A stretch of DNA of 32,434 nt from Betaproteobacteria bacterium (GTDB taxonomy: Bacteria; Pseudomonadota; Gammaproteobacteria; Burkholderiales; JAEUMW01), in the NCBI GenBank assembly GCA_016791345.1, contig JAEUMW010000437.1, positions 1 through 32,434 on the forward strand, in the 5' to 3' direction. The position numbers and the translations under genes are program-made. The notes under the pieces were generated by a model. The model searched no databases, was not told the origin of the DNA, and was given only the letters and a program-made list of their open reading frames with translations. Below, piece after piece: positions 4,538-29,285 of this stretch (its first letter is position 1; each line of letters starts with the position of its first letter).

Positions 4538-5869
4538 GTGTCCGCTCCGACCGCGATGGAAAATCATAGAGCCCACACCCTCGAATCTGCGACAGTCGAC
4601 GACGCTGGCGTTCGCGCTCTGCCAGGGACGCCGGCGGAAGACATGATCGGCGCGACGCCGAATGAGCCGCGTGACGGCAAGGTCCTCACCGTCGAGCGTG
4701 GACTGCTCCAGCAGCTTCTTCACAAGCTCAACGACCCGCCCCTGCGGATCGTCCTCTGGGACGGCACCGAGATCGTGAGCAGCAACCGTGCGCCGATCGC
4801 AACGCTTTTCGTTCGCACGCGCAGCGCGTTCTATCGCATGCTGTGGGATCCGAACCTGCATTTCGGTGACGACTATGCGAGCGGGGAGATCGACGTCGAA
4901 GGCGACATCGTGCAGTTCATCGCCACGCTCTACGAGGCGACCAGCGACATCCCCATGGGTGCTGCCGGACTGAAGATCTTCCCCGGGGAAAGGCGGCCCC
5001 GCCGCAACACGCTGAAGGGATCGCGGGAACATATCCACCATCACTACGACATCGGCAACGCGTTCTACCGGCTGTGGCTCGACGCCGAGATGCAGTACAC
5101 GTGCGCCTACTTCGAGACGCCGGACGCCAGCCTCGATGCAGCGCAGCTGGCGAAGCTCGATCATGTCTGCCGCAAGCTCCGGCTGGGCCCGAAGGACACG
5201 GTGGTCGAGGCCGGTTGCGGATGGGGCGGGCTTGCCCTGCACATGGCGCGGCATTTCGGCGTTGCCCGTGTGCGTTCGTACAACATCTCGGAAGAGCAGG
5301 TGCGCTTCGCGCGCGAGCGCGCGCAACGCGAAGGGCTGGCGGACCGCGTCGACTACGTTCTCGATGACTATCGCAACATCGACGGCTGCTACGACGTGTT
5401 CGTCTCGGTCGGGATGCTGGAGCACGTCGGCGTCGACAACTACCGCGAACTCGGCGAAGTCATCCACCGCTCGCTCGCGCCAGATGGCCGCGGTCTCATC
5501 CACAGCATCGGGCGCAACCGCCCGGGTTATATGCATCCCTGGATCGAGCGGCGCATCTTTCCGGGTGCCTACCCGCCCGCCCTGTCCGAAATGATGCAGA
5601 TTTTCGAGGCACGCCGCCTGTCCGTGCTCGACGTCGAGAACCTTCGGCCGCATTACGCAATGACGCTGCACCATTGGCTGGAGCGCTTCGAGGCCGCGCG
5701 CGAGCAGGTGCGTTCGATGTATGACGAACGCTTCGTCCGCATGTGGCGGCTCTACCTTGCGGGATCGAAGGCGGCCTTCATCGACGGCGAACTGCAGCTC
5801 TTCCAGGTGCTGTTCACGCGCCCGAAGGTGAACGACTGGCCGCTCACGCGCGGCTGGATGTATCGATGA
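4538..5869 (+). CDS. Cyclopropane-fatty-acyl-phospholipid synthase family methyltransferase
   Basis: This SAM-dependent methyltransferase, 443 aa in the longest form, acts on unsaturated acyl chains of phospholipids. The SAM-binding loop is EAGCGWGG (224-231). Residues matching the bicarbonate/active-site set of E. coli Cfa are present: Cys189 in QYTCAY, Glu295 in GMLEHVG, His322 in IHSIG and Tyr373. E. coli Cys354 is not conserved (the block reads LAGSKAAF). An N-terminal extension of about 50 residues precedes the family core. Starts are uncertain: GTG 4538, ATG 4556 or ATG 4643 (GGAAG just upstream). The next gene, a geranylgeranyl-reductase-like flavoprotein, overlaps it by ATGA. That coupling suggests the product may be a modified lipid other than plain cyclopropane; this is inference. 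A conventional CFA synthase remains the simplest alternative. Confidence 0.85.
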   Translation: MSAPTAMENHRAHTLESATVDDAGVRALPGTPAEDMIGATPNEPRDGKVLTVERGLLQQLLHKLNDPPLRIVLWDGTEIVSSNRAPIATLFVRTRSAFYRMLWDPNLHFGDDYASGEIDVEGDIVQFIATLYEATSDIPMGAAGLKIFPGERRPRRNTLKGSREHIHHHYDIGNAFYRLWLDAEMQYTCAYFETPDASLDAAQLAKLDHVCRKLRLGPKDTVVEAGCGWGGLALHMARHFGVARVRSYNISEEQVRFARERAQREGLADRVDYVLDDYRNIDGCYDVFVSVGMLEHVGVDNYRELGEVIHRSLAPDGRGLIHSIGRNRPGYMHPWIERRIFPGAYPPALSEMMQIFEARRLSVLDVENLRPHYAMTLHHWLERFEAAREQVRSMYDERFVRMWRLYLAGSKAAFIDGELQLFQVLFTRPKVNDWPLTRGWMYR

Positions 5870-10604: not shown

Positions 10605-12341
10605 TCAGGCCGTCACCGGTGTCGCTTCGAGCGACGCGGGGCCGTCGCCATCGCGGTGGAAGTCAAAGCGCCGGTTGTGGAACCGTTCGAGCGTCGGTCG
10701 ATGCCCGATGCTGAAGAGCGTGGTTTCCGGCAACCGCTGCTTCAGCAACCGGTACAGGCGTTCTTCCGTCGTCTCGTCGAGCGCCGCCGTAGCCTCGTCC
10801 AGATAAAGCCATGCAGGCTTCAGGAGCAGCGCGCGTGCGAAGGCGAGCCGTTGCTGTTCGCCCGGAGACAGTTGCAGCGTCCAGTGCTCATCGTCGTCGA
10901 GACGGTCGGCGAGTTGCGGCAAGCCGCACGCGACGAGTGCGCTGCGGATCTCGTCGTCACCATAGCTGCGAGCATCGGCGGGGAACGTCACCGCCCGGCG
11001 CAGCGGGCCGATCGGAATGTAAGGGCGTTGCGGCAGGAACAAGGTCGAGCCGGGGCGCCGGATGTGGCCGGTTACGTACGGCCAGATGCCGGCGATGGCC
11101 CGGAACAGCGTGCTCTTGCCGCAGCCTGACGGTCCGGTGAGGAGTGCGCTGTCGCCGGGCTTGAGCGTCAGAGTCGCATTCTTGAGCAACGGCCGTGCGT
11201 TCGGCAGTGCGAGATCGAGATCCCGCACCTCCAAGGCACCTTCGCTCGTTTCCTCGACGACGAGTTGACCTTCTTCGCGCTGGTCGACGGCGCGCTGCAT
11301 CGCGTGCTGGAACGTGATGAGTCGCGCTGCCGACGCACGCCACTCGGCGAACGTCGTATAGGCGTCGATGAACCACGACAGAGCCCCCTGAACCTGGGAG
11401 AAGGCACTGGCGGTCTGCATGAGACCCCCGAGTGGAATGGCTCCGGAAAAGTAACGTGGCGCGGCGACGACGTAGGGGAAGATGATCGCAACCTGCGAAT
11501 ACCCGGCGGTGAACCAAGTAAGCCGTTTCTGCTGAACCATGATGCGGATCCAGTTGGCGACGACGTCGGCGAAGCGGTGCCGGAATCCGGCGAGTTCCTG
11601 CGCTTCGCCGCGATAGAGGGCGACTCCTTCCGCGTTCTCGCGAAAGCGCACCAATCCGAAGCGAAAGTCGGCTTCGTAGCGCTGCTGGTTGAAATTGAGT
11701 CCGATCAGGGGCTTGCCGATCCGGTGCGTGAGCCAGGTGCCGAGCGCCGCGTAGGCGAGCGCCACCCAGACCATGTAGCCGGGAATCTCGTAGGTGACGC
11801 CCGCGAGGCTCACGTCCAGCACACCCGAGAGTCCCCAGAGGATGCCGATGAAGGAGACCAGCGTAACCAGCGCGTTGATGAAACCAAGGGTGAGCGACAG
11901 CGTCTGTTCGATGAAGATCCTGAAATCCTCGGCGATGCGCTGGTCCGGATTGTCGGTGCCGCGGTCAGCGAGTTGCATGCGGTAGTAGGTGCGCTCTGCC
12001 AGCCACTCATCGAGATAGAGGTTGGTCAGCCAACGTCGCCAGCGAATCTGCAGCCACTGATTCAGGTAGAGCTGGTAGACGGCCATCACGATGTACGCGG
12101 CCGCGAGCCAGCCAAAACGCATCAGCAGTTCGAAGAATACGTCCTGCTTCTTATCCTGCAGGGAGTTGAAGAACGCGTTCTGCCACTGGTTGATCTCGAC
12201 GTTGATCCAGACCATGCCCAGCGTGAGGGCGACGATGGCGGCGAGCAGCAGCCGCGCCGGCCACTTCTCCTCGGAACTCCAGTAGGGCCGGACGAGGCGC
12301 CACAGGTCGCGCACGAAGCGACCGTCCTTCTCGCTCAGCAT
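10605..12341 (-). CDS. ABC transporter, fused permease/ATPase, YddA/SbmA type
   Basis: This is a 578-residue half-transporter with an N-terminal SbmA/BacA-like membrane domain (about 1-345, six predicted helices) and a C-terminal nucleotide-binding domain (about 368-565). The Walker A is GPSGCGKST (403-411), the signature LSPGEQQR (491-498) and the Walker B LLKPAWLYLDEA (506-517), with the switch His in SIGHR. The membrane part begins DLWRLVRPYWSSEEKW, a hallmark of the YddA family, related to vitamin B12 (BacA) and peptide importers. The substrate is not known. ATG 12341 has GAGGAAAG upstream at good spacing. It converges on the cyclase-FHA gene with 6 bases between stops. Sequence motifs make the fused-ABC assignment secure; import versus export is open. 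Confidence 0.9.
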   Translation of the reverse strand: MLSEKDGRFVRDLWRLVRPYWSSEEKWPARLLLAAIVALTLGMVWINVEINQWQNAFFNSLQDKKQDVFFELLMRFGWLAAAYIVMAVYQLYLNQWLQIRWRRWLTNLYLDEWLAERTYYRMQLADRGTDNPDQRIAEDFRIFIEQTLSLTLGFINALVTLVSFIGILWGLSGVLDVSLAGVTYEIPGYMVWVALAYAALGTWLTHRIGKPLIGLNFNQQRYEADFRFGLVRFRENAEGVALYRGEAQELAGFRHRFADVVANWIRIMVQQKRLTWFTAGYSQVAIIFPYVVAAPRYFSGAIPLGGLMQTASAFSQVQGALSWFIDAYTTFAEWRASAARLITFQHAMQRAVDQREEGQLVVEETSEGALEVRDLDLALPNARPLLKNATLTLKPGDSALLTGPSGCGKSTLFRAIAGIWPYVTGHIRRPGSTLFLPQRPYIPIGPLRRAVTFPADARSYGDDEIRSALVACGLPQLADRLDDDEHWTLQLSPGEQQRLAFARALLLKPAWLYLDEATAALDETTEERLYRLLKQRLPETTLFSIGHRPTLERFHNRRFDFHRDGDGPASLEATPVTA

Positions 12342-18237: not shown

Positions 18238-21200
18238 TTAGCGGGTCGCTTTGAGCTGAGGATCGGACAGCCTGCCGGAAACGGCGACCAGCGCCCGAAT
18301 CGGGTGCGGCTTTGCCGCGAGTTCGACGTTGAGCCGCCCTGCAAGATCACCGGATGCGACCATGTCCGTTGTCCCGTTCGCGAGGAGCAGGCCGGAGGAC
18401 AGCGCGAGCTGCCGGTACTGGTAGTTCCGGCCGGTGACTTTCAGGGTTCCGGAGAGCTCGGCAAACTGCGTCTTGCCACCGCGCACCGGTGTTCCGGCCG
18501 CGGCCTCCTGCAGCGCACGCGTGAGGTCCAGGTTCTCGATCTCGCCCCGCTCGACCTTGAATCCCGCCTCCATGACAGGTTCCGCAAACAGGCGGCTGAG
18601 CGATTCCGACTGCGTGGTGTAGCGTCCATTGACGGTCAGCTGTCCGGTGGCGCGGAACTGTGGAGTGAACGACTTGAGCGCCTTTGCCAAATCGACCCCG
18701 TTGGCGCTGAAATCGCCCGTCAGCGTCCACGGGCTGTTCCACACCAAGGTGGCACGGCCGGTTGCCGTGCCGCCATAGAGGCGGGCGGTGAGTTCGCTCA
18801 GCGCGAGTTCTTTCCCGCGCAGCCATCCCTTGCCTGTGATCTCATCGAACTCGAACCCGGGGCCGAGCGGCGATTTCCAGCCTCGTCCCGAGAACTCGGT
18901 TTCCATGCCATCGGCCTTGGCGCGCAGATCGACCTTGAGCTTGCCGTCTTCGCTGCGCAAGGCGGCCTTCGTGAACCCTCCGGCGGCGTCCAGACCGATC
19001 TCGCCACCGAAAGCAGGCAGTGGGACTGCAGTGCCGTCGAGCTTGACGTTCCGCAGCACGACTTTCGCGACCTGCAGCGACTTGTCACGGCCCGGTGCGA
19101 CCCAGTCCCCCAACCGCGGCAACAGGTTTACGTCCGCGCTGACAGATTCGAGTTCCAAGCTCGACAGGACCTTGCGCTCGGTGAAGAGTGACGAGAGCAC
19201 GGGTGCCGCGCGGACGCTGGCGATCTTCACGTCCTGTGTGGCACCGATGACCACGTTCTCCGCCCTGAAGTGAGGTGACGGGAAGACCGCCGCCCGAACC
19301 GAGCCGATCTTGACCGGTTCGCCGAGCGTGCTCGAAACGACCTTCTCCATGCCGGGCGCAAGGCTGTCCCAAGGGAGTATGTGCACGAGGGCGACGGCCA
19401 CGATCACGAGCAGTGCAACCGCCGCAGCCGCCGGCTTCTGCCACTTCACACGCCGCTTGGGGAATGGCGAGGACGCGCGCTTTCCCAAGGCTTTCCGTGC
19501 AAGCGCCTTCTCCTCCGCTGCCGCACGCTTGCGCTCCTTCGCTTCTTCCTTCTCGCGTTTCTTCCGGAGCTTTTCCTCGGCTTTGCGCTGTTCCTCAGCC
19601 TCCGCACGGGCGGCTGCTTCCTCGCGCTCGCGCCGCTCGGCTTCAGCGCGCGTGCGTTCTTCGGCCTCGGCACGCTCGCGGCGCCGCGCCTCCTCCGCGA
19701 GACGTCGCTCTTCGTCTTCCCGGCGTGTGCGCTCTTCCTCTTCAAGGCGGCGACGTTGTTCGTCTTGAGCTGCCTGTTCCGCCTCTCGGAGGCATCTGCG
19801 CTCTTCGTCGATTGCCGCCTGTTCCGCCGCTTCGGCGGCTTTCCGTGAGGTTTCGTGTGCCTCGTCGGCAAGTCGTGCCGCTTCGGCCATGGCTTCGCGA
19901 TCCGCCTCGTCCTTCGCCGCCATTTCCAGCGCGTGGCGTTCCGCCGCGACTCTGAGCTTCTCTTCTTCCTCGGCCCTCAGTTCTCGCTCGCGGGCATCGA
20001 GCGCGTCCAAGTCGATCTCGAAGAAGGGGGAGACATCGACCTGTGGGATCGACGCGCCATCGCCGGCGGACGACAGAGCCGCCGGGATACCCGGTGCAGC
20101 CGTGGTCTCGGCCGTCAGGTCGGGTTCAGACTCCGGCTGCGCTGATGCTTCCGGCTCGACATCGTTGTTAACCTTAGTTGCCGCAGATCCATCGGCCGCG
20201 GCGGACTCAGACTCGGCCGACTGCGATCCTGCGGGGTCCTCTGGCTCGGCTGGGGCGTCGATCTGCTCGGTTGGCGCCAAAGTCTGGGCTGGTGCGACTT
20301 CCTGGGCGCACGCAATGGCAGCGGCGGCTTCCTCAGCGGCAGCGCGTGCGGCCTCCTCGCGGGCGCGTTCCTCGGCTTCCGCTTCGCGCCGGGCGGCTTC
20401 CTCGCGCGCCTCGCGCTCCGCCTGCTCCTGCGCTTGCCTTTCGGCTTCTTCCCGCGCGCGCCGCCGCTCCGTTTCCTCACGTTCCTGCCGGGCACGCGCT
20501 TCGGCTTCTTCCTCGGCACGGCGCTCGGCTTCTTCACGTGCCTTGCGTTCGGCCGCGAGATTGGCTTCCAATTCTTCACGCATCCGGCGTTCGGCTTCTT
20601 CACGCGCCCGATGCTCGGCCTCGTCGCGGGTGCGCTGCTCCGCCTCCTCGGCTGCCCGCCGCTGCGCTTCCTCGCGTGTCTGGCGCTCGGCTTCCTCCTG
20701 CGCTCGTCGCTGCGCCTCCTCGCGCTGCCGCAGGGCGTGCTCCTCTTCGGCACGGCGCTCGGCTTCCTCGCGCGCCCGGCGTTCGGCGGCAAGCCGTGAT
20801 TCGAATGCTTCCCGCGCACGCCGCTCGGACTCTTCGTGGGCAAGGCGTTCGGCTTCCTCGCGCGCCCGGTGCTCGGCATCCTCTTGCGTCTTGCGCTCTA
20901 TCGCTTCGCGTGCACGCTGTTCGGCGTCCTCTTTTGCCTTCTGTTCGACGGCAAGCCGGGCGGACAACTCCTCGCGCGCACGGCGCTCCTCGGAAAGCCG
21001 TGCTTCCATTTCCTCTCGCGCTTTCTGCTCGGCCTCCTCACGGGCGCGGCGCTCGGCCTCCTCGCGCGCCTGCCGTTCCGCGGCGAGCCGCGTCTCGAGT
21101 TCTTCCTTGGCTTTGCGCTCCAGTTCCTCGCGGGCACGTCGCTCGGCTTCCTCGCGGTTCCTCAACTCTTCCCCGAGCCTCGCCTCCGTCTCTTCGCGCG

Positions 21201-21990
21201 CCTTGCGCTCGGCCCCCTCGCGCGCCTGCCGTTCGGCTTCCACACGGGCCAGCTTTTCAGCTTCGAGCCGTGCTTCCAGCGCTTCGCGCGCCTGCCGTTC
21301 CTCCTCGGCGCGTCTTTCGGCGTCGGTCCTGGCCTTGCGCTCGGCCTCCGCCTTCATGTGGGCTTCGAGGCGTGCGCGTGCTTCCGCCTTCGATCGCGCC
21401 TCGGCTTCTGCGGCTACCCGCTCGCGCAGCTCCATTTCGGTCCGCGCCTGAGCCTCGGCACGCACGCGGGCTTCCTCATCGGCGCGCGCTTTCGCTTCTG
21501 CGGCTGCCTGCGCCTTCAGCGCTTCCTCCGCCACGCGGCGCGCTTCGGCCTCTGCTGCGGCGCGGGCCGTCGTGACTTCGCTCTCCGTAGCCATCGAAGC
21601 GACGAGCGGGGAGCGAATCTCCGAGGCGCGACCCGAGTCGGGGTCGCTCTTCTCGTCGAGGGCGCTGCGTGCAATCGCCGAGAGGTCGAGCTGATCGAGG
21701 TCTCCCGCGGCGACCGGGCGGGGCAGACGCCACGATCGGATGCTCGATGTAGTGCCCGATGCGACTTCGCCCGGAGCGCACGCCTTGATGAATCCTTCTT
21801 CCTCCAGACGCTCGATAGCCTGCCGAAACTTCATCTCCGAGAGCTTCGACTCGCGCAGGAGTCGCTCCAGGGACGATTTGCCGTCGAACAGTGCCAGCAC
21901 ACTCAGCAGATTTCGCGGCAGGCGCGCTGCCCGGTTCTTGACTTCGCTGACGCCACGGGGGGTCTTGGTGAAGATGGCCTGAAAATCCAT
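18238..21990 (-). CDS. Giant AsmA-like protein with long charged-helix rods
   Basis: This 1250-residue protein has four parts. Residues 1-75 form a compact helical domain, possibly a winged helix (RLPRNLLSVLALFDGKSSLE, then SEMKFRQAIERLEEEGFI). Residues about 140-560 are an almost uninterrupted Glu/Ala/Arg helix with modular repeats, followed by a disordered Pro/Glu/Ser linker (565-655) and a second charged helix (660-836). A membrane segment lies at 853-873 (AAAAVALLVIVAVALVHIL), after a basic stop (KRRVKW). Residues 875-1250 resemble the AsmA domain (GEPVKIGSVRAAVFPSPHFR, LTARLYGGTATGRATL, and a GQLTVNG repeat). AsmA-family proteins reach into the periplasm and are linked to lipid transport and outer-membrane biogenesis. 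Here the rods would lie in the cytoplasm. ATG 21990 has a weak Shine-Dalgarno. The reading frame is unbroken. Confidence 0.85.
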   Translation of the reverse strand: MDFQAIFTKTPRGVSEVKNRAARLPRNLLSVLALFDGKSSLERLLRESKLSEMKFRQAIERLEEEGFIKACAPGEVASGTTSSIRSWRLPRPVAAGDLDQLDLSAIARSALDEKSDPDSGRASEIRSPLVASMATESEVTTARAAAEAEARRVAEEALKAQAAAEAKARADEEARVRAEAQARTEMELRERVAAEAEARSKAEARARLEAHMKAEAERKARTDAERRAEEERQAREALEARLEAEKLARVEAERQAREGAERKAREETEARLGEELRNREEAERRAREELERKAKEELETRLAAERQAREEAERRAREEAEQKAREEMEARLSEERRAREELSARLAVEQKAKEDAEQRAREAIERKTQEDAEHRAREEAERLAHEESERRAREAFESRLAAERRAREEAERRAEEEHALRQREEAQRRAQEEAERQTREEAQRRAAEEAEQRTRDEAEHRAREEAERRMREELEANLAAERKAREEAERRAEEEAEARARQEREETERRRAREEAERQAQEQAEREAREEAARREAEAEERAREEAARAAAEEAAAAIACAQEVAPAQTLAPTEQIDAPAEPEDPAGSQSAESESAAADGSAATKVNNDVEPEASAQPESEPDLTAETTAAPGIPAALSSAGDGASIPQVDVSPFFEIDLDALDARERELRAEEEEKLRVAAERHALEMAAKDEADREAMAEAARLADEAHETSRKAAEAAEQAAIDEERRCLREAEQAAQDEQRRRLEEEERTRREDEERRLAEEARRRERAEAEERTRAEAERREREEAAARAEAEEQRKAEEKLRKKREKEEAKERKRAAAEEKALARKALGKRASSPFPKRRVKWQKPAAAAVALLVIVAVALVHILPWDSLAPGMEKVVSSTLGEPVKIGSVRAAVFPSPHFRAENVVIGATQDVKIASVRAAPVLSSLFTERKVLSSLELESVSADVNLLPRLGDWVAPGRDKSLQVAKVVLRNVKLDGTAVPLPAFGGEIGLDAAGGFTKAALRSEDGKLKVDLRAKADGMETEFSGRGWKSPLGPGFEFDEITGKGWLRGKELALSELTARLYGGTATGRATLVWNSPWTLTGDFSANGVDLAKALKSFTPQFRATGQLTVNGRYTTQSESLSRLFAEPVMEAGFKVERGEIENLDLTRALQEAAAGTPVRGGKTQFAELSGTLKVTGRNYQYRQLALSSGLLLANGTTDMVASGDLAGRLNVELAAKPHPIRALVAVSGRLSDPQLKATR
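19483..20013 (-). repeat. Second charged-helix low-complexity region of the AsmA-like gene
   Basis: This encodes residues about 660-836, dominated by Glu, Arg, Ala and Lys (for example RRRLEEEERTRREDEERRL). It is less regularly repeated than the first rod and ends in a lysine-rich stretch just before the membrane helix. It is part of the coding sequence, not a separate element. Confidence 0.75.
20482..21279 (-). repeat. Modular 90-base (30-residue) coding repeats, 14 + 8n residue architecture
   Basis: This encodes residues 238-503. Three perfectly phased 30-residue units (238-267, 268-297, 298-327) occupy 21010-21279. Each unit is a 14-residue block of the type LETRLAAERQAREE followed by two 8-residue blocks of the type AERRAREE. 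Further 14-residue blocks begin at residues 328, 342, 396 and 474, followed by none, five, two and two 8-residue (or near 8-residue) blocks, with six further 8-mers at 426-473. The unit sizes suggest growth by unequal exchange within the reading frame. Confidence 0.8.
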
Positions 21991-22197: not shown

Positions 22198-23193
22198 CTA
22201 ACGCACCGCGAGGACGATCTTGCCGACGTGGGCGCCGCTTTCCATGAGGGCATGGGCGTCAGCGGCCTGGTCCAGGGGGAAGACGGCATGGACGACCGGG
22301 CGTATCTTGCCGGCCTCGATCAGGGGCCACACCTGGTCGCGCAGACTGCGCGCAATGTTCGCCTTGACCGCCGCGGTGCGCGCGCGCAGCGTGGAGCCGG
22401 TCAGCACCAGACGCCGCACCATGATGTCCGCCAGATTCACGGTCGCTTTCGCGCCGCCGAGGAAAGCGATCAGCACGAGTCGGCCATCATTGGCCAGCGC
22501 TTTCAGTTCGCGCGGCACGTAGTCGCCGCCGACCATGTCGAGGATGACGTCGACGCCGCGACCGCCGGTGGCCTGCTTCACCACCTCGGCGAAGTCGTCC
22601 GTCCGATAGTTGATGGCGACCTCGGCACCGAGTTCGACGCAGGCGGCACACTTCTCCGCACTGCCGGCCGTGGCGAAAACACGGTTGCCGAACGCACGCA
22701 CCATCTGGATCGCGGTGACGCCGATGCCGCTGGTGCCACCCTGGACGAGGAAGGTTTCGCCGGGTTCCAGCCGCCCGCGGTCGAAGACGTTCGTCCAGAC
22801 GGTGAAGCAGGTCTCGGGAAGCGAAGCCGCCTGCACGAAATCCAGGCCGTGAGGCATCGGCAGGCACTGCCCGGCGGGCACCGTGCAGTACTCTGCATAG
22901 CCGCCGCCGTTGGCGAGCGCGCAAACGGCATCGCCGACACCCCAGCCCGTCACGCCCTCGGCGACCGCGGCGATCCGACCGGCCACTTCGAGGCCCGGCA
23001 GGTCCGATGCGTCCGGCGGCGGCGGATAGACACCCTGCCGCTGCAGCACGTCCGGACGGTTGACCCCGGCGGCGAATACCTCGATCAGAACGTCGCCCGG
23101 TGCCGGCCGGGGCATCGGACGACGCGTCGGCTTCAGCACTTCCGGACCACCCGGGGCAGAGATTTCCACGGCGCGCATCGAGTCGGGGAGCAT
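22198..23193 (-). CDS. NAD(P)H:quinone oxidoreductase, PIG3/zeta-crystallin type
   Basis: This 331-residue zinc-independent medium-chain dehydrogenase/reductase reduces quinones or other carbonyl/enone compounds with NAD(P)H. The GroES-like N-terminal domain has PAPGDVLIEVFAAGVNRPD followed by VLQRQGVYPPPP. The Rossmann domain has VQGGTSGIGVTAIQM and RGVDVILDMVGGDY. The characteristic PIG3 blocks LRARTAAVKANI and an HVGKIVL end are present. I chose ATG 23193; ATG 23178 is also possible, and the upstream extension to 23265 looks non-coding. A TACAAT -10-like hexamer lies on the minus strand at 23233-23228. It is divergent from glpK and unlinked functionally as far as can be seen. Confidence 0.9.
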   Translation of the reverse strand: MLPDSMRAVEISAPGGPEVLKPTRRPMPRPAPGDVLIEVFAAGVNRPDVLQRQGVYPPPPDASDLPGLEVAGRIAAVAEGVTGWGVGDAVCALANGGGYAEYCTVPAGQCLPMPHGLDFVQAASLPETCFTVWTNVFDRGRLEPGETFLVQGGTSGIGVTAIQMVRAFGNRVFATAGSAEKCAACVELGAEVAINYRTDDFAEVVKQATGGRGVDVILDMVGGDYVPRELKALANDGRLVLIAFLGGAKATVNLADIMVRRLVLTGSTLRARTAAVKANIARSLRDQVWPLIEAGKIRPVVHAVFPLDQAADAHALMESGAHVGKIVLAVR

Positions 23194-23319
23194 CGGTCTC
23201 TTCGAAACGGATGAAGTCGGGAGGCCGATTGTACTCCCGCGCCGGGGGCCGGGGCCGGCTGGCATCGTGGCGGACTATGGACCACAATCGCCCCTTGCTG
23301 CGGTGCCGTGGAGGGGGTG

Positions 23320-25364: not shown

Positions 25365-26528
25365 TCAGGCGTACTGGCGCAGGCGCATCGAGAACTCGCG
25401 CAGCGGTGCAATGCCGCTCGCTTCCGCTCGCTGGCACCAGTCCTCGAGCTGACGCACGAGTTGCTCGCGCGATGCGCTGGAGCGGGCCCAGATTGCACTG
25501 AGTTCGTCGCGCATGCCGAACACCGTCTTCAGCACGCTGCTCTTCATGCTGAGCACGTCGAGGCAGGCACGGTCCTCGGCCTTGACCTCGGTCTGACCCC
25601 GCATCAGGAAGCGCTTCACCGCCTCCCAGTCGACCTTCGAGTGCTCGCGCACCTTCTCGAACTCATCGGCGCAGAGGCGCTTCACGCTCTTGGCGTACTT
25701 CGCCATGACCTCGTAACGGTGGTTGATCACTGCCTGCAGCGTGGTGACGTCGCACTCGGTCTTCGCTTCCGCCATACGCAGACGGGGCGCCAGGCGCTTC
25801 ACGTCGGCAAGCCCGACCATCTCCATGAGGCGGATGTAGAGCCAGCCGATATCGAACTCGTACCACTTGCTGGAGAGCCTGGCCGAGCTGCCATAGGCGT
25901 GGTGGTTGTTGTGCAGCTCCTCGCCACCGATGAGGATGCCCCAGGGCACGATGTTGCGCGAGGCGTCTTCCGTCTGGAAGTTGCGGTAGCCCCAGTAGTG
26001 ACCGATGCCGTTGATGACGCCGGCGGCGAACAGCGGAATCCATATCATCTGCACGGCCCAGATCGACATGCCGAGGAAACCGAAAAGGGCGAAGTTGATG
26101 ATGAACATGAGCGTGATGCCGAGCCGCGTGTACTTGCTGTACAGATTGCGCTCGATCCAGTCATCGGGGGTGCCGTGACCGTACTTGTCGAGGGTCGCCT
26201 GGACTTTCGCTTCCTCGCGATAGAGTTCAGCCCCTTCCCACAGCACCTTATTGATGCCTCGCGTCTGCGGGCTGTGAGGATCCTCCACGGTTTCGCATTT
26301 CGCGTGGTGCTTGCGATGAATCGCCGCCCATTCCTTCGTCACCATGCCGGTGGTGAGCCACAGCCAGAAGCGGAAGAAATGGCTCACGATCGGGTGCAAC
26401 TCCAGGGCGCGGTGGGCCTGATGGCGATGCAGGTAGATGGTCACTCCCGCGATGGTGATATGGGTGAGCACCAGCGCCACCACGATGTAACCCCACCAAG
26501 GCAGCTCGAGAAAGCCTGAGAAGAACAT
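25365..26528 (-). CDS. Membrane fatty-acid desaturase (delta-9 type)
   Basis: This 387-residue integral membrane di-iron desaturase introduces a cis double bond into acyl chains. All three histidine boxes are intact: HRHQAH (34-39), HRKHH (71-75) and HNNHH (206-210). An extra conserved His lies in GIGHYWGYRNF (about 174-184). Hydrophobic segments surround residues 12-32, 47-64 and 136-172. The C-terminal part (about 255-387) is a soluble charged helical extension beyond the catalytic core. ATG 26528 has AAGGATC upstream. It has its own promoter and an inverted repeat in the leader, so expression may be regulated. Its product (monounsaturated acyl chains) could be the substrate of the CFA-family enzyme encoded elsewhere in the window. 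Confidence 0.92.
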   Translation of the reverse strand: MFFSGFLELPWWGYIVVALVLTHITIAGVTIYLHRHQAHRALELHPIVSHFFRFWLWLTTGMVTKEWAAIHRKHHAKCETVEDPHSPQTRGINKVLWEGAELYREEAKVQATLDKYGHGTPDDWIERNLYSKYTRLGITLMFIINFALFGFLGMSIWAVQMIWIPLFAAGVINGIGHYWGYRNFQTEDASRNIVPWGILIGGEELHNNHHAYGSSARLSSKWYEFDIGWLYIRLMEMVGLADVKRLAPRLRMAEAKTECDVTTLQAVINHRYEVMAKYAKSVKRLCADEFEKVREHSKVDWEAVKRFLMRGQTEVKAEDRACLDVLSMKSSVLKTVFGMRDELSAIWARSSASREQLVRQLEDWCQRAEASGIAPLREFSMRLRQYA

Positions 26529-26631: not shown

Positions 26632-27933
26632 CTAACTGCTTGTCGGACTGGCCGGATTTGCGAGGGCTGCCCCGTCGCGGTGCAGGCGCGCCTCGCTTTG
26701 CGGGTAGGGAACCGCGATGCCGGCCGCCTTGAGGCCGGCGAGAATCGTCTCGTACAGTTCGGTGCGCAGAGCGGTCGTCCCCCGCTCCGGATCGCCGACC
26801 GAGACGCCGAGTTCCAGTTCCACGCCGAAGTCGCCGAGGCCGGTGACCGCGACCAGGGGGGCGGGTTCGGACAGGACGCGCGACTGCGCCTGCGCTGCTG
26901 CGAGGGCGATCTCGCGCGCTTTCTGCACGTCGCTGTCGAAAGGGATGCGGAACGGCAGCGTCACCCGCGCCCGGCGCCCGCCGGCGCCGTGGCTGACCAC
27001 TGTCGATGAGATCAGCGTCTCGTTCGGGATGATCGCCTCGTTGCCGTCCAGGCTGCGCACGACGACGTAACGGGCGGTCATCCGGGTGATCTGACCCTGA
27101 CTCTTGTCGACGGTGACGACATCGCCCAAGCTCACTGAACGGTCGAGCAGGATGATGAAGCCACTCACGTAGTTGCTGGCGATTCTCTGCAGGCCGAGGC
27201 CGAGGCCGACGCCGAGCGCGCCGCCGAAGACCGAGAGCGCCGTGAGATCGATGCCCACCATCGGCAGCGCGATCAGGACCGCGAGGACGATGAGCACCGC
27301 GTGCAGCGCTTTGGCGAGCACGACGCGCACGTTGATGTCCATCTCGGTCGCGCTCATGAGGCGCTGCTCCAGCACGCGACCGGCCCACAGCGCGAGCAGG
27401 AGCGTGACCGTGACCGCGATCAGACCGTTGATGACGGTAAGCAGACTGGTAGAGCGGCCGCCCAGGGGGATGCGGATTTCATCGAGATAGCCGAGCACGT
27501 CGGGCAGGAAGCCGGTGATGTGCAGGGCGAGCCCGAACCACACGACGCCGGAGATGAGGCGCTCGAAGCGCTGCACCAGCCCGCTGTACGGGAACACGTG
27601 ACGCAGCATGAAGACTGCGAAGCGCACGATGGCGAGTGCGCCGAGCAGCGGCACCGCGAGTTCGAGCAGGTGCACCGGCTGATGCTTGCGCAGGAGCGCA
27701 CGCCCTGCCAATACGACGACGAGCGCCGTCAGCGGGAAGAGCGCCCGCTGCACACCCGCCGCGCCGACCTTGAGCGCCGTATGGTCGGTGCGCACCCATG
27801 GCGCGACGAAGCGGTTGAGCAGCCAGGCCACCGCGAGCGCCACCGCGATGACGGCGAGTTCCCACAGAACTGAAGTCTTCTGCAGGTCGGTGAGGAGGTC
27901 TCCGATCAGCGGGGGCAGCGCGAAGTCCGACAT
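26632..27933 (-). CDS. MscS-family mechanosensitive ion channel
   Basis: This 433-residue inner-membrane channel of the small-conductance mechanosensitive type protects against hypo-osmotic shock. Several hydrophobic segments fill about residues 23-225. The pore-lining helix is LSVFGGALGVGLGLGLQRIASNYVSG, split as FGGALGVGLGLGLQ then RIASNYVSG near 235-260, with the Gly/Ala packing typical of TM3. The beta domain follows (VSLGDVVTVDKSQGQI, and the conserved SLDGNEAIIPNE motif), then an alpha/beta C-terminal domain. The extra N-terminal helices make it longer than E. coli MscS (286 aa). ATG 27933 is chosen because upstream codons encode an arginine-rich, non-protein-like stretch. It lies downstream of the RsmB-family gene with an 80-base gap. 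Confidence 0.9.
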   Translation of the reverse strand: MSDFALPPLIGDLLTDLQKTSVLWELAVIAVALAVAWLLNRFVAPWVRTDHTALKVGAAGVQRALFPLTALVVVLAGRALLRKHQPVHLLELAVPLLGALAIVRFAVFMLRHVFPYSGLVQRFERLISGVVWFGLALHITGFLPDVLGYLDEIRIPLGGRSTSLLTVINGLIAVTVTLLLALWAGRVLEQRLMSATEMDINVRVVLAKALHAVLIVLAVLIALPMVGIDLTALSVFGGALGVGLGLGLQRIASNYVSGFIILLDRSVSLGDVVTVDKSQGQITRMTARYVVVRSLDGNEAIIPNETLISSTVVSHGAGGRRARVTLPFRIPFDSDVQKAREIALAAAQAQSRVLSEPAPLVAVTGLGDFGVELELGVSVGDPERGTTALRTELYETILAGLKAAGIAVPYPQSEARLHRDGAALANPASPTSS

Positions 27934-28013
27934 GAGTGCAGCGGGAAGGAGCGGGGCGCAAAACGCGGCGAATTCTAACACGCGACCCCGGGCCGCCTGC
28001 CGAGGCTCGGAGA

Positions 28014-29285
28014 TCAGACCGCGGTTGTCTCGCGCCGCTCCAGCACCGCGCCGAAGAAGCCGTCGCAGCCGTGGGCGGCCGGCGTGAGCGCGAGGTAAGG
28101 TCCGGTATCGAGCGCCACCCGCGCCTGTGCCAGGACCTCTGCCGCCGGCATCAGCGCGAAGTCCGGGTGCGTTTTCAGGAAGGCGTCCACGACGTCCTCG
28201 TTCTCTTCCGCAAGCACGCTGCACGTGCCATAGAGCAAGCGCCCGCCGGGCCGCACGAGGCGCGCCGCCGCCGCCATGATCGACGCCTGCTTCGCCGCCA
28301 TCTCGGCGACGCTTGCCGGCGACTGGCGCCATTTGAGGTCGGGATTGCGGCGCACTGTCCCGAGCCCGCTGCACGGCGCGTCGACCAGCACCCGATCGGC
28401 CTTGGCGGCGAGGCGCAGGATGCGCACGTCGTTCTCGTCGGCGATGTGTCGCGGCTCTACGTTCGTGAGCCCGGCGCGGGCGAGGCGCGGCTTCAGTTTC
28501 GACAGCCGGCGCTCGGACGTGTCGAAGGCGTAGAGCCGCCCCTGCGACTGCATCACATCGCCGAGCAGCAGGGTCTTGCCGCCGGCACCCGCGCAGAAGT
28601 CGACGACCAGGTCGCGCCGCCTGGGTGCGACCAGCAGGCCGAGCAGCTGACTGCCTTCGTCCTGCACTTCGATGGCTCCCGACCGGAAGAGATCATGGCG
28701 ATTGATGGCGGGGTGTCCCGCGAGGCGCACGCCAAGCGGAGAATACGGTGTCGCGGTCGCGACGATGCCATCGCGGGCAAGCCGCGCGAGCACCGCCTCG
28801 CGGTTTGCCTTCACGCGGTTCACGCGCAGATCGAGCGGCGCCGGCTCGTTCAGGCTGCGCGCCAGTGTGAGCAGCGCCGCCTCGCCCAGCCTGGGCAGCA
28901 GACGCTCGATCAGCCAGTCCGGCAGGTCGCATTGCAGCGCGAAGGGAAGTTCGGACACGTCTGCCGCGCGCACGGTGTTGAGCCATGCGATCTCGGACGG
29001 GTCGAGGAACGGCGCAAGCTCGCGCGCCGAGACACCCTTGAGCTTCGCCAGGCAAGCCAGCACGAGGCGCCGCGGGTGCATCCCGCCTGCCAGGTGTTCG
29101 AGCAGGCGCCTGCGGCGCAGACAGGCGAACACCGTTTCGGCGATGAAGCTGCGGTCACGGGCACCAAGCTCGCGGTGCATGCGAAAGAAGGCGCTGAGCG
29201 CGGCGTCCGCCGGCCCCGCAAGGGGCAGGGCCGCGGCCAGCGCGTCCTCTGCCGAGCGCAGCTGCGCCGCCGCCAGCTCAGCCAC
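28014..29285 (-). CDS. RsmB/NOP-family RNA (cytosine-5) methyltransferase
   Basis: This 423-residue SAM-dependent enzyme methylates cytosine C5 in RNA, most likely 16S rRNA. An N-terminal helical region of about 140 residues is NusB-like. The catalytic domain has the SAM motif DFCAGAGGKT (229-238), the PC motif Cys305 in DAPCSGLGT and the nucleophile Cys355 in GTCSVL. Both cysteines needed for catalysis and product release are intact. The GTG start at 29285 overlaps the end of the DUF3108 gene by 8 bases, so the two are coupled. The name rsmB is not assigned firmly because betaproteobacteria often carry a second family member near fmt, and which one is the true RsmB cannot be told here. Confidence 0.9.
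   Translation of the reverse strand: MAELAAAQLRSAEDALAAALPLAGPADAALSAFFRMHRELGARDRSFIAETVFACLRRRRLLEHLAGGMHPRRLVLACLAKLKGVSARELAPFLDPSEIAWLNTVRAADVSELPFALQCDLPDWLIERLLPRLGEAALLTLARSLNEPAPLDLRVNRVKANREAVLARLARDGIVATATPYSPLGVRLAGHPAINRHDLFRSGAIEVQDEGSQLLGLLVAPRRRDLVVDFCAGAGGKTLLLGDVMQSQGRLYAFDTSERRLSKLKPRLARAGLTNVEPRHIADENDVRILRLAAKADRVLVDAPCSGLGTVRRNPDLKWRQSPASVAEMAAKQASIMAAAARLVRPGGRLLYGTCSVLAEENEDVVDAFLKTHPDFALMPAAEVLAQARVALDTGPYLALTPAAHGCDGFFGAVLERRETTAV

Follow-up and report, generated by a model that had tools for sequence, protein, structure and literature searches.

An AsmA-domain protein of non-canonical architecture, with an N-terminal winged-helix module and two long charged rods, and its order-wide family in Burkholderiales

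Proteins of the AsmA superfamily are the foremost candidates for moving phospholipids to the outer membrane. The AsmA-like members of Escherichia coli and Pseudomonas aeruginosa have an N-terminal transmembrane (TM) helix and a short cytoplasmic tail, and the superfamily (Pfam CL0401) includes AsmA (PF05170), TamB, YhdP and YdbH. The present study concerns a gene at positions 18238-21990 of the minus strand of contig JAEUMW010000437.1, from a Betaproteobacteria bacterium of the order Burkholderiales (GCA_016791345.1); the whole stretch analysed, 32,434 nucleotides, is referred to as the window. Read from an ATG start, this open reading frame (ORF) encodes a protein of 1250 residues, which resembles the superfamily in its single TM helix, its periplasmic beta-rich domain, a PF05170 score over the cut-off and profile and fold matches led by TamB. 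It differs in that about 850 residues precede the TM helix and the periplasmic part comprises just ~375 residues, and in having relatives that carry a nucleotidyl cyclase.

Other parts of the protein and of its family also have described counterparts. The rods resemble single alpha-helix (SAH, or ER/K) domains, such as those of myosin-6 and caldesmon, in their richness in Glu, Arg, Lys and Ala, their i/i+4 charge pairing and the lack of a hydrophobic seam (PMC5347031, PMC5812594), but the window protein is a bacterial membrane protein with two such predicted segments, the longer of which has 425 residues. The N-terminal domain (N-domain) shares its fold and weak profile matches with winged-helix modules of MarR/Lrp-type regulators and of PqqD/MccB peptide-binding domains, from which it is set apart by an extra conserved N-terminal strand, a KTxKG motif, an acidic recognition helix and the lack of a Pfam or NCBIfam entry. 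Membrane class III nucleotidyl cyclases of the TM-PEGA type (L210-L228; L, G and f numbers denote loci, genomes and families) share a catalytic domain with D/D/N/R motifs with some relatives (L094, L179-L185, L076, L096 and L197), but in these fusions the rod, TM helix and AsmA domain follow the output domain, and the window protein itself has no cyclase. Finally, the genomes of the family also encode short AsmA proteins of the classical kind (420-540 residues, e.g. L159-L178), which possess a homologous AsmA domain of equal size, but neither the N-terminal winged helix nor the rod.

The window protein is an AsmA-domain protein of non-canonical architecture and a member of a widespread, undescribed betaproteobacterial family spread across the order. 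The open-licence literature searched yielded no account of an AsmA protein with an extensive cytoplasmic portion or of a fusion between AsmA and a cyclase, and the whole protein has no name in Pfam or NCBIfam, in agreement with a preliminary description of the locus that knew of no protein joining these parts. The layout given there, namely a globular domain, a helix of about 420 residues, a linker, a helix of about 180 residues and a TM helix, was recovered segment by segment through composition and AlphaFold2 (AF2) modelling, as follows:

18238..21990, minus strand: whole gene, encoding the winged helix-rod-rod-TM-AsmA protein (ORF list, translation; homologues across the order)
21766..21990, minus strand: N-terminal winged-helix module, residues 1-75, with conserved KTxKG and DGKS motifs (AF2, alignment, weak HTH_24 match, PDB profiles)
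21679..21702, minus strand: degenerate copy of the LDFT motif, DLDQLDLS, residues 97-104 (comparison with the family motif [LFMI]DF[TS])
20311..21585, minus strand: rod 1, charged helix, residues 136-560 (i/i+4 pairs, charge period 8, no heptad, 24-bp DNA repeats)
20026..20310, minus strand: low-complexity linker between the rods, residues 561-655, rich in Pro, Gly, Ser and Ala (composition; L076, L096 and L197 have a cyclase at the corresponding site)
19999..20016, minus strand: IDLDAL, a further short motif at residues 659-664, with FDLSGL-type versions elsewhere in the family (11 of 46 long members)
19486..20025, minus strand: rod 2, charged helix, residues 656-835 (composition, charge-period analysis)
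19441..19485, minus strand: basic juxtamembrane segment, residues 836-850 (sequence; positive charge before the TM helix throughout the family)
19378..19440, minus strand: single TM helix, residues 851-871 (AF2 helix 6-26 of the C-terminal construct; hydropathy)
18241..19377, minus strand: periplasmic AsmA-like beta domain, residues 872-1250 (PF05170, AF2, TamB profile match)
22198..23265, minus strand: upstream quinone oxidoreductase-like gene (Pfam ADH_zinc_N; orthology evidence), outside the machine

The C-terminal part matches AsmA (PF05170) with 43.1 bits against a cut-off of 29.8 (30.3 bits summed in the genome search). Modelled by AF2 with 39 family sequences, it reached a predicted local distance difference test score (pLDDT) of 93.4 and a predicted template modelling score (pTM) of 0.83, and displayed the TM helix, a second helix and then a mostly beta domain of ~375 residues with ~21 antiparallel strands, which is the elongated beta-rich fold of the superfamily. 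TamB (9xdc) was the sole significant match in the PDB profile search (E 6e-6), and also ranked first, though weakly, when the model was searched with Foldseek; membership of GspN was rejected (22 bits against a cut-off of 50). The AsmA assignment of the preliminary description, which had named failure in profile searches as the outcome that would speak against it, is thereby upheld. The superfamily's N-terminal TM helix with a short cytoplasmic tail is absent, the TM helix lying 850 residues into the protein. Across 42 proteins, net charge averages +4.2 before this helix and -0.1 after it, and a basic flank precedes it in 39 of them; this charge distribution suggests an N-in topology with cytoplasmic rods, the location the preliminary description had assumed. 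As modelled, the AsmA part with its ~21 strands is probably too short for a full periplasmic lipid bridge, and it may bind or sense a lipid or envelope component. The window's own genome (G000) holds a separate full-length YhdP in an ORF of 1405 residues, and no TamB over the Pfam cut-off was found in it, an absence that is uncertain in a draft 96% complete in 473 contigs.

The distribution of the family was surveyed in 300 genomes of the window's order. Relatives of the AsmA part occur in 128 of these and relatives of the N-domain in 102, and the fusion recurs. A first batch of 41 loci was extracted, and a second batch brought the number of relatives to about 60, drawn from many of the order's families and in part from single-contig genomes. 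The N-domain stands at the start of the same ORF in 38 of the 41 first-batch loci, one of the others being truncated and two having a divergent N-terminus. A scan for the N-domain in named organisms gave no match; a profile search with a narrower AsmA alignment returned 15 loci, mostly from betaproteobacterial or Burkholderiales metagenome-assembled genomes. Outside the order, 229 genomes from the class and 249 from the phylum had the N-domain only in short ORFs (mostly 126-340 residues, at most 463), so that in this sample fusion to AsmA appears to be limited to the order. As a correction to the preliminary description, the protein is no isolated case but belongs to a family spread across the order, whose rods differ freely in length and may be missing.

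The reading frame is real, since homologues of the N- and C-terminal domains lie within one shared ORF in dozens of relatives and the GC content at third codon positions stays at 67-80% along the entire ORF. The preliminary description had noted that a rod split into separate genes in close relatives would point to an artefact; no such split was seen. An annotation or assembly fusion was rejected, as single ORFs of 990-1130 residues exist in one- or two-contig genomes (G022, G151, G249, G181 and G242), and the presence of several members in such genomes rules out assembly as the cause. Genes antisense to the rod (e.g. 19889-21451, plus strand) were likewise rejected, their ORFs mirroring low-complexity codons.

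Among 57 measurable proteins, the TM helix plus AsmA domain spans 361-413 residues (coefficient of variation, CV, 0.03), while the cytoplasmic part ranges from 109 to 1276 residues (CV 0.40), so the ends are constrained and the spacer is not; even the close relatives L066, L068 and L069 have cytoplasmic parts of 711, 745 and 677 residues. This pattern of constraint suggests that the rod may be a spacer of non-critical length. When 64 AsmA domains were placed on a tree, the label "rod" required 3 changes against 20.5 in shuffles, and the short, classical AsmA proteins encoded by these genomes, which lack the N-domain, fell mostly in clades separate from the rod proteins. Within the rod group, L101 (539 residues, ~126 of them cytoplasmic) is sister to L090 (1214 residues) with 100/100 support, hence loss of the rod can leave both ends in place. 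A rod-less paralogue of 498 residues (G000:C225:21280-22755; L121:7272-8765, minus strand), which combines this N-domain with an AsmA-like part, is also encoded in the window's own genome.

Rod 1 comprises 425 residues, is free of proline and contains two glycines (259 and 273); at 0.15 nm per residue it would measure 63.8 nm, and rod 2, with 180 residues, 27 nm, reproducing the spans of roughly 63 and 27 nm calculated earlier. Opposite charges at i/i+4 are strongly enriched in rod 1 (80 acid-to-base and 90 base-to-acid pairs, 170 in all, against 32 each, ~65, in shuffles), like charges at this spacing are depleted (10 against 65) and recur at i+8 (146 against 65). Such i/i+4 pairing is 2-3 times the shuffled level in nearly all long family members, and most family rods share the charge period of 8. 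The charged composition and i/i+4 pairing are those of SAH domains, although i/i+3 opposite-charge pairs are not enriched (60 against 64). Neither window rod has a hydrophobic heptad seam: the 3.5-residue signal is near noise level in both and absent from nearly all relatives, the hendecad signal is not strong in the window rods, and large hydrophobics make up 8-11% of the window rods and 6-15% of most family rods. The authors of Waggawagga expect straight single helices from even-numbered charged repeats (PMC5812594), and Glu-Arg pairs with alanine fillers are the recipe for designed single helices (PMC5347031). Given the strong i/i+4 Glu-Arg pairing, the period of 8 and the lack of a heptad, the rods look like single alpha-helices rather than coiled coils, and they may be monomeric and serve as stiff spacers. 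The rod DNA carries 24-bp tandem repeats, through which changes in rod length by slippage would be possible.

AF2 modelled the N-domain with a pLDDT of 85-95 over residues 1-70, as a strand, four helices and a strand (E-H-H-H-H-E), and composition marks residues 76-135 as a linker to rod 1. The fold is that of a winged helix, supported by matches to HTH_24 and HTH_47 below the Pfam cut-offs and by weak PDB profile and Foldseek matches to winged helices; neither Pfam nor NCBIfam has a name for the domain. The structures predicted for the two ends, which the preliminary description had proposed as a check, are thus a winged helix and an AsmA-like beta domain. In contrast to the basic or polar recognition helix of DNA-binding winged helices, that of the family (residues 51-65) is acidic, with a mean net charge of -1.9 and no conserved basic residue, and the conserved positive residues (K9, K12 and K/R20) lie at the beta1-alpha1 edge, the invariant ones within the KTxKG motif at the first strand-helix junction. 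These features favour binding of protein or peptide over reading of DNA, and we infer that the module would hold a cytoplasmic protein or peptide partner, not promoter DNA. The N-domain is a mobile module, since it also forms part of small stand-alone proteins and of a response regulator; neither this mobility nor the cyclase variants figured in the preliminary description. Just after the domain, the motif [LFMI]DF[TS], usually DLDFT, is present in 34 of 62 relatives, against 0.13 expected in shuffles. The FDLSGL/IDLDAL-type motif near the break between the rods is found in 11 of 46 long members, against 0.7 in block shuffles, and is suggestive only, its pattern having been defined post hoc.

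Several observations concern the module outside the family. In L118:7623-8411 (minus strand), the N-domain with a DLDFT motif is fused to a response-regulator receiver (REC) domain. The stand-alone proteins (L103-L111, L114, L116 and L122) are mostly of 160-225 residues, and in them a linker joins the N-domain to a C-terminal helical domain without a Pfam name; two of them stand in tandem in L106, and L103 and L105 adjoin a ParA-like ATPase gene on the opposite strand.

A class III nucleotidyl cyclase is fused to the AsmA domain across one TM helix in 11 relatives from three families. In family f37 (L094, L179-L185) it replaces the rod in all eight members checked (709-747 residues; PF00211 score 29.4 against a cut-off of 21.9), whereas in L076 (f48, residues 555-734), L096 (668-850) and L197 (671-845), the last two of f25, it lies between two rods, at the position of the window protein's linker. 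All 11 retain the catalytic motifs, with the metal-binding aspartates (FLDIV, DTGDGAA) and the transition-state Asn and Arg (GDGVNDANR). Cyclases of this kind occur in 53 of the 300 genomes of the order, mostly as TM-PEGA proteins of 350-490 residues, the AsmA fusions numbering 11. In the cyclase tree, the fused forms are set off from the others by one branch and a single change (88/81), which is compatible with, but no proof of, a single origin of the fusion followed by losses. At E<=1e-20, neither the window protein nor its genome gave a match to the cyclase domain.

The genomic neighbourhood was also considered. An operon partner was rejected, none being conserved: in one lineage the neighbours are mutL, miaA, amiC and a nucleotidyltransferase gene on mixed strands, and in another a quinone oxidoreductase and a hydrolase gene. 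The quinone oxidoreductase-like gene upstream of the window's gene (neighbourhood cluster 18) is on the same strand, and it holds this same-strand upstream position in L075, L079, L082, L083 and L096 too. In the f23 members L090, L095 and L101, a gene for an MsbA-like ATP-binding cassette (ABC) exporter adjoins the AsmA-rod gene on the same strand. A scan for promoters and terminators gave no promoter-like site and fewer terminator-like sites than chance. Elsewhere in the window, an ORF at 25365-26528 (minus strand) combines a fatty acid desaturase (residues 11-213) with an ISL3-type transposase (residues 270-386), which suggests that an insertion element has interrupted a desaturase or become joined to it; further membrane-related genes of the window encode a cyclopropane fatty-acid synthase-like protein (4538-5869, plus strand), an SbmA/BacA-like ABC transporter (10605-12341, minus strand) and a mechanosensitive channel (26632-28374, minus strand).

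Our tentative preference is for a single-pass inner-membrane adaptor or receptor that couples the periplasmic AsmA domain to a cytoplasmic partner. The AsmA domain would bind or sense a lipid or envelope component, the rods would act as stiff single-helix spacers whose exact length is immaterial, and the winged helix at the far cytoplasmic end would dock a protein or peptide partner, so that the protein would tie, or report, the state of the envelope to something deeper in the cytoplasm. With a cyclase in the linker, as in sister lineages, the same scaffold would become a transmembrane cyclase, while the window protein would act through its partner alone; the cytoplasmic output would thus be exchangeable between a cyclase and a partner held by the winged helix. 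This adaptor or receptor model accounts for most of the observations, its mechanism being held with the same reserve. Several points weigh against it: synteny names no partner, the neighbours being mostly on opposite strands and dependent on lineage; the Foldseek matches of the winged helix are weak (best E 0.027); and, with the cyclase fusion limited to 11 of the 300 genomes sampled, signalling may have been added in particular lineages. In a more specific form, possible but doubtful, the AsmA domain would sense lipid or the state of the envelope from the periplasmic side and pass the signal across the membrane and along the single-helix rods; the outputs would be cyclic AMP or cyclic GMP in the cyclase forms and the partner bound by the winged helix in the window form.

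The main rival is that the protein transfers lipid without signalling, the domain moving lipid across the interface of inner membrane and periplasm while the rods and winged helix anchor it in the cytoplasm and position it at a pole, a division site or a lipid-synthesis enzyme. The adjoining MsbA-like exporter gene of the three f23 members fits this explanation, and E. coli recruits its AsmA proteins to the cell poles (PMC12977461). On the other hand, ~21 strands at ~0.5 nm per strand would extend ~10 nm, which is short for a full bridge, the genome already has a separate full-length YhdP, and cyclase insertions are unexpected in a pure positioning device; we regard lipid transfer as a possible explanation, but a doubtful one. 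The proposal of the preliminary description, that the protein connects a cytoplasmic partner to an envelope lipid-transport domain, is in this light plausible but unproven, the inter-rod cyclases pointing at least as strongly to signalling. A membrane-tethered transcription factor, whose winged helix would bind DNA with the rods reaching the nucleoid, as in one-component membrane regulators, seems unlikely: the fold, the sub-threshold HTH matches and the presence of the module on a response regulator speak for it, but the recognition helix is acidic, the conserved positive residues sit at the beta1-alpha1 edge, and the weak resemblances include the peptide-binding PqqC/D and MccB-type domains besides regulators. 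Less probable still is that the rods form a dimeric coiled coil, making the long protein a structural stalk like the helical linkers of the TolA/TonB type. The helices are long and rich in Ala, Glu and Arg, and alanine and hydrophobics recur with period 4 in a few relatives (L091, L097 and L102); as Ala seams are able to dimerise (PMC5347031), an Alacoil-type dimer is conceivable there. However, heptad and strong hendecad signals are lacking, large hydrophobics are sparse in the window rods, and the TolA helix is periplasmic whereas these rods are placed in the cytoplasm. Of the two options in the preliminary description, stable single helices or a coiled coil, the former is favoured.

If the sensor reading were true, AsmA-type domains would not be only lipid conduits, and the family would represent a new class of envelope receptor. 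The family unites an AsmA domain with a conserved cytoplasmic module on one polypeptide, to which some species add a cyclase, making a connection between cytoplasm and envelope directly testable by ordinary genetics and biochemistry, and its natural rod-length variants and rod-less forms provide an unusually good series for the study of long single helices in bacteria.

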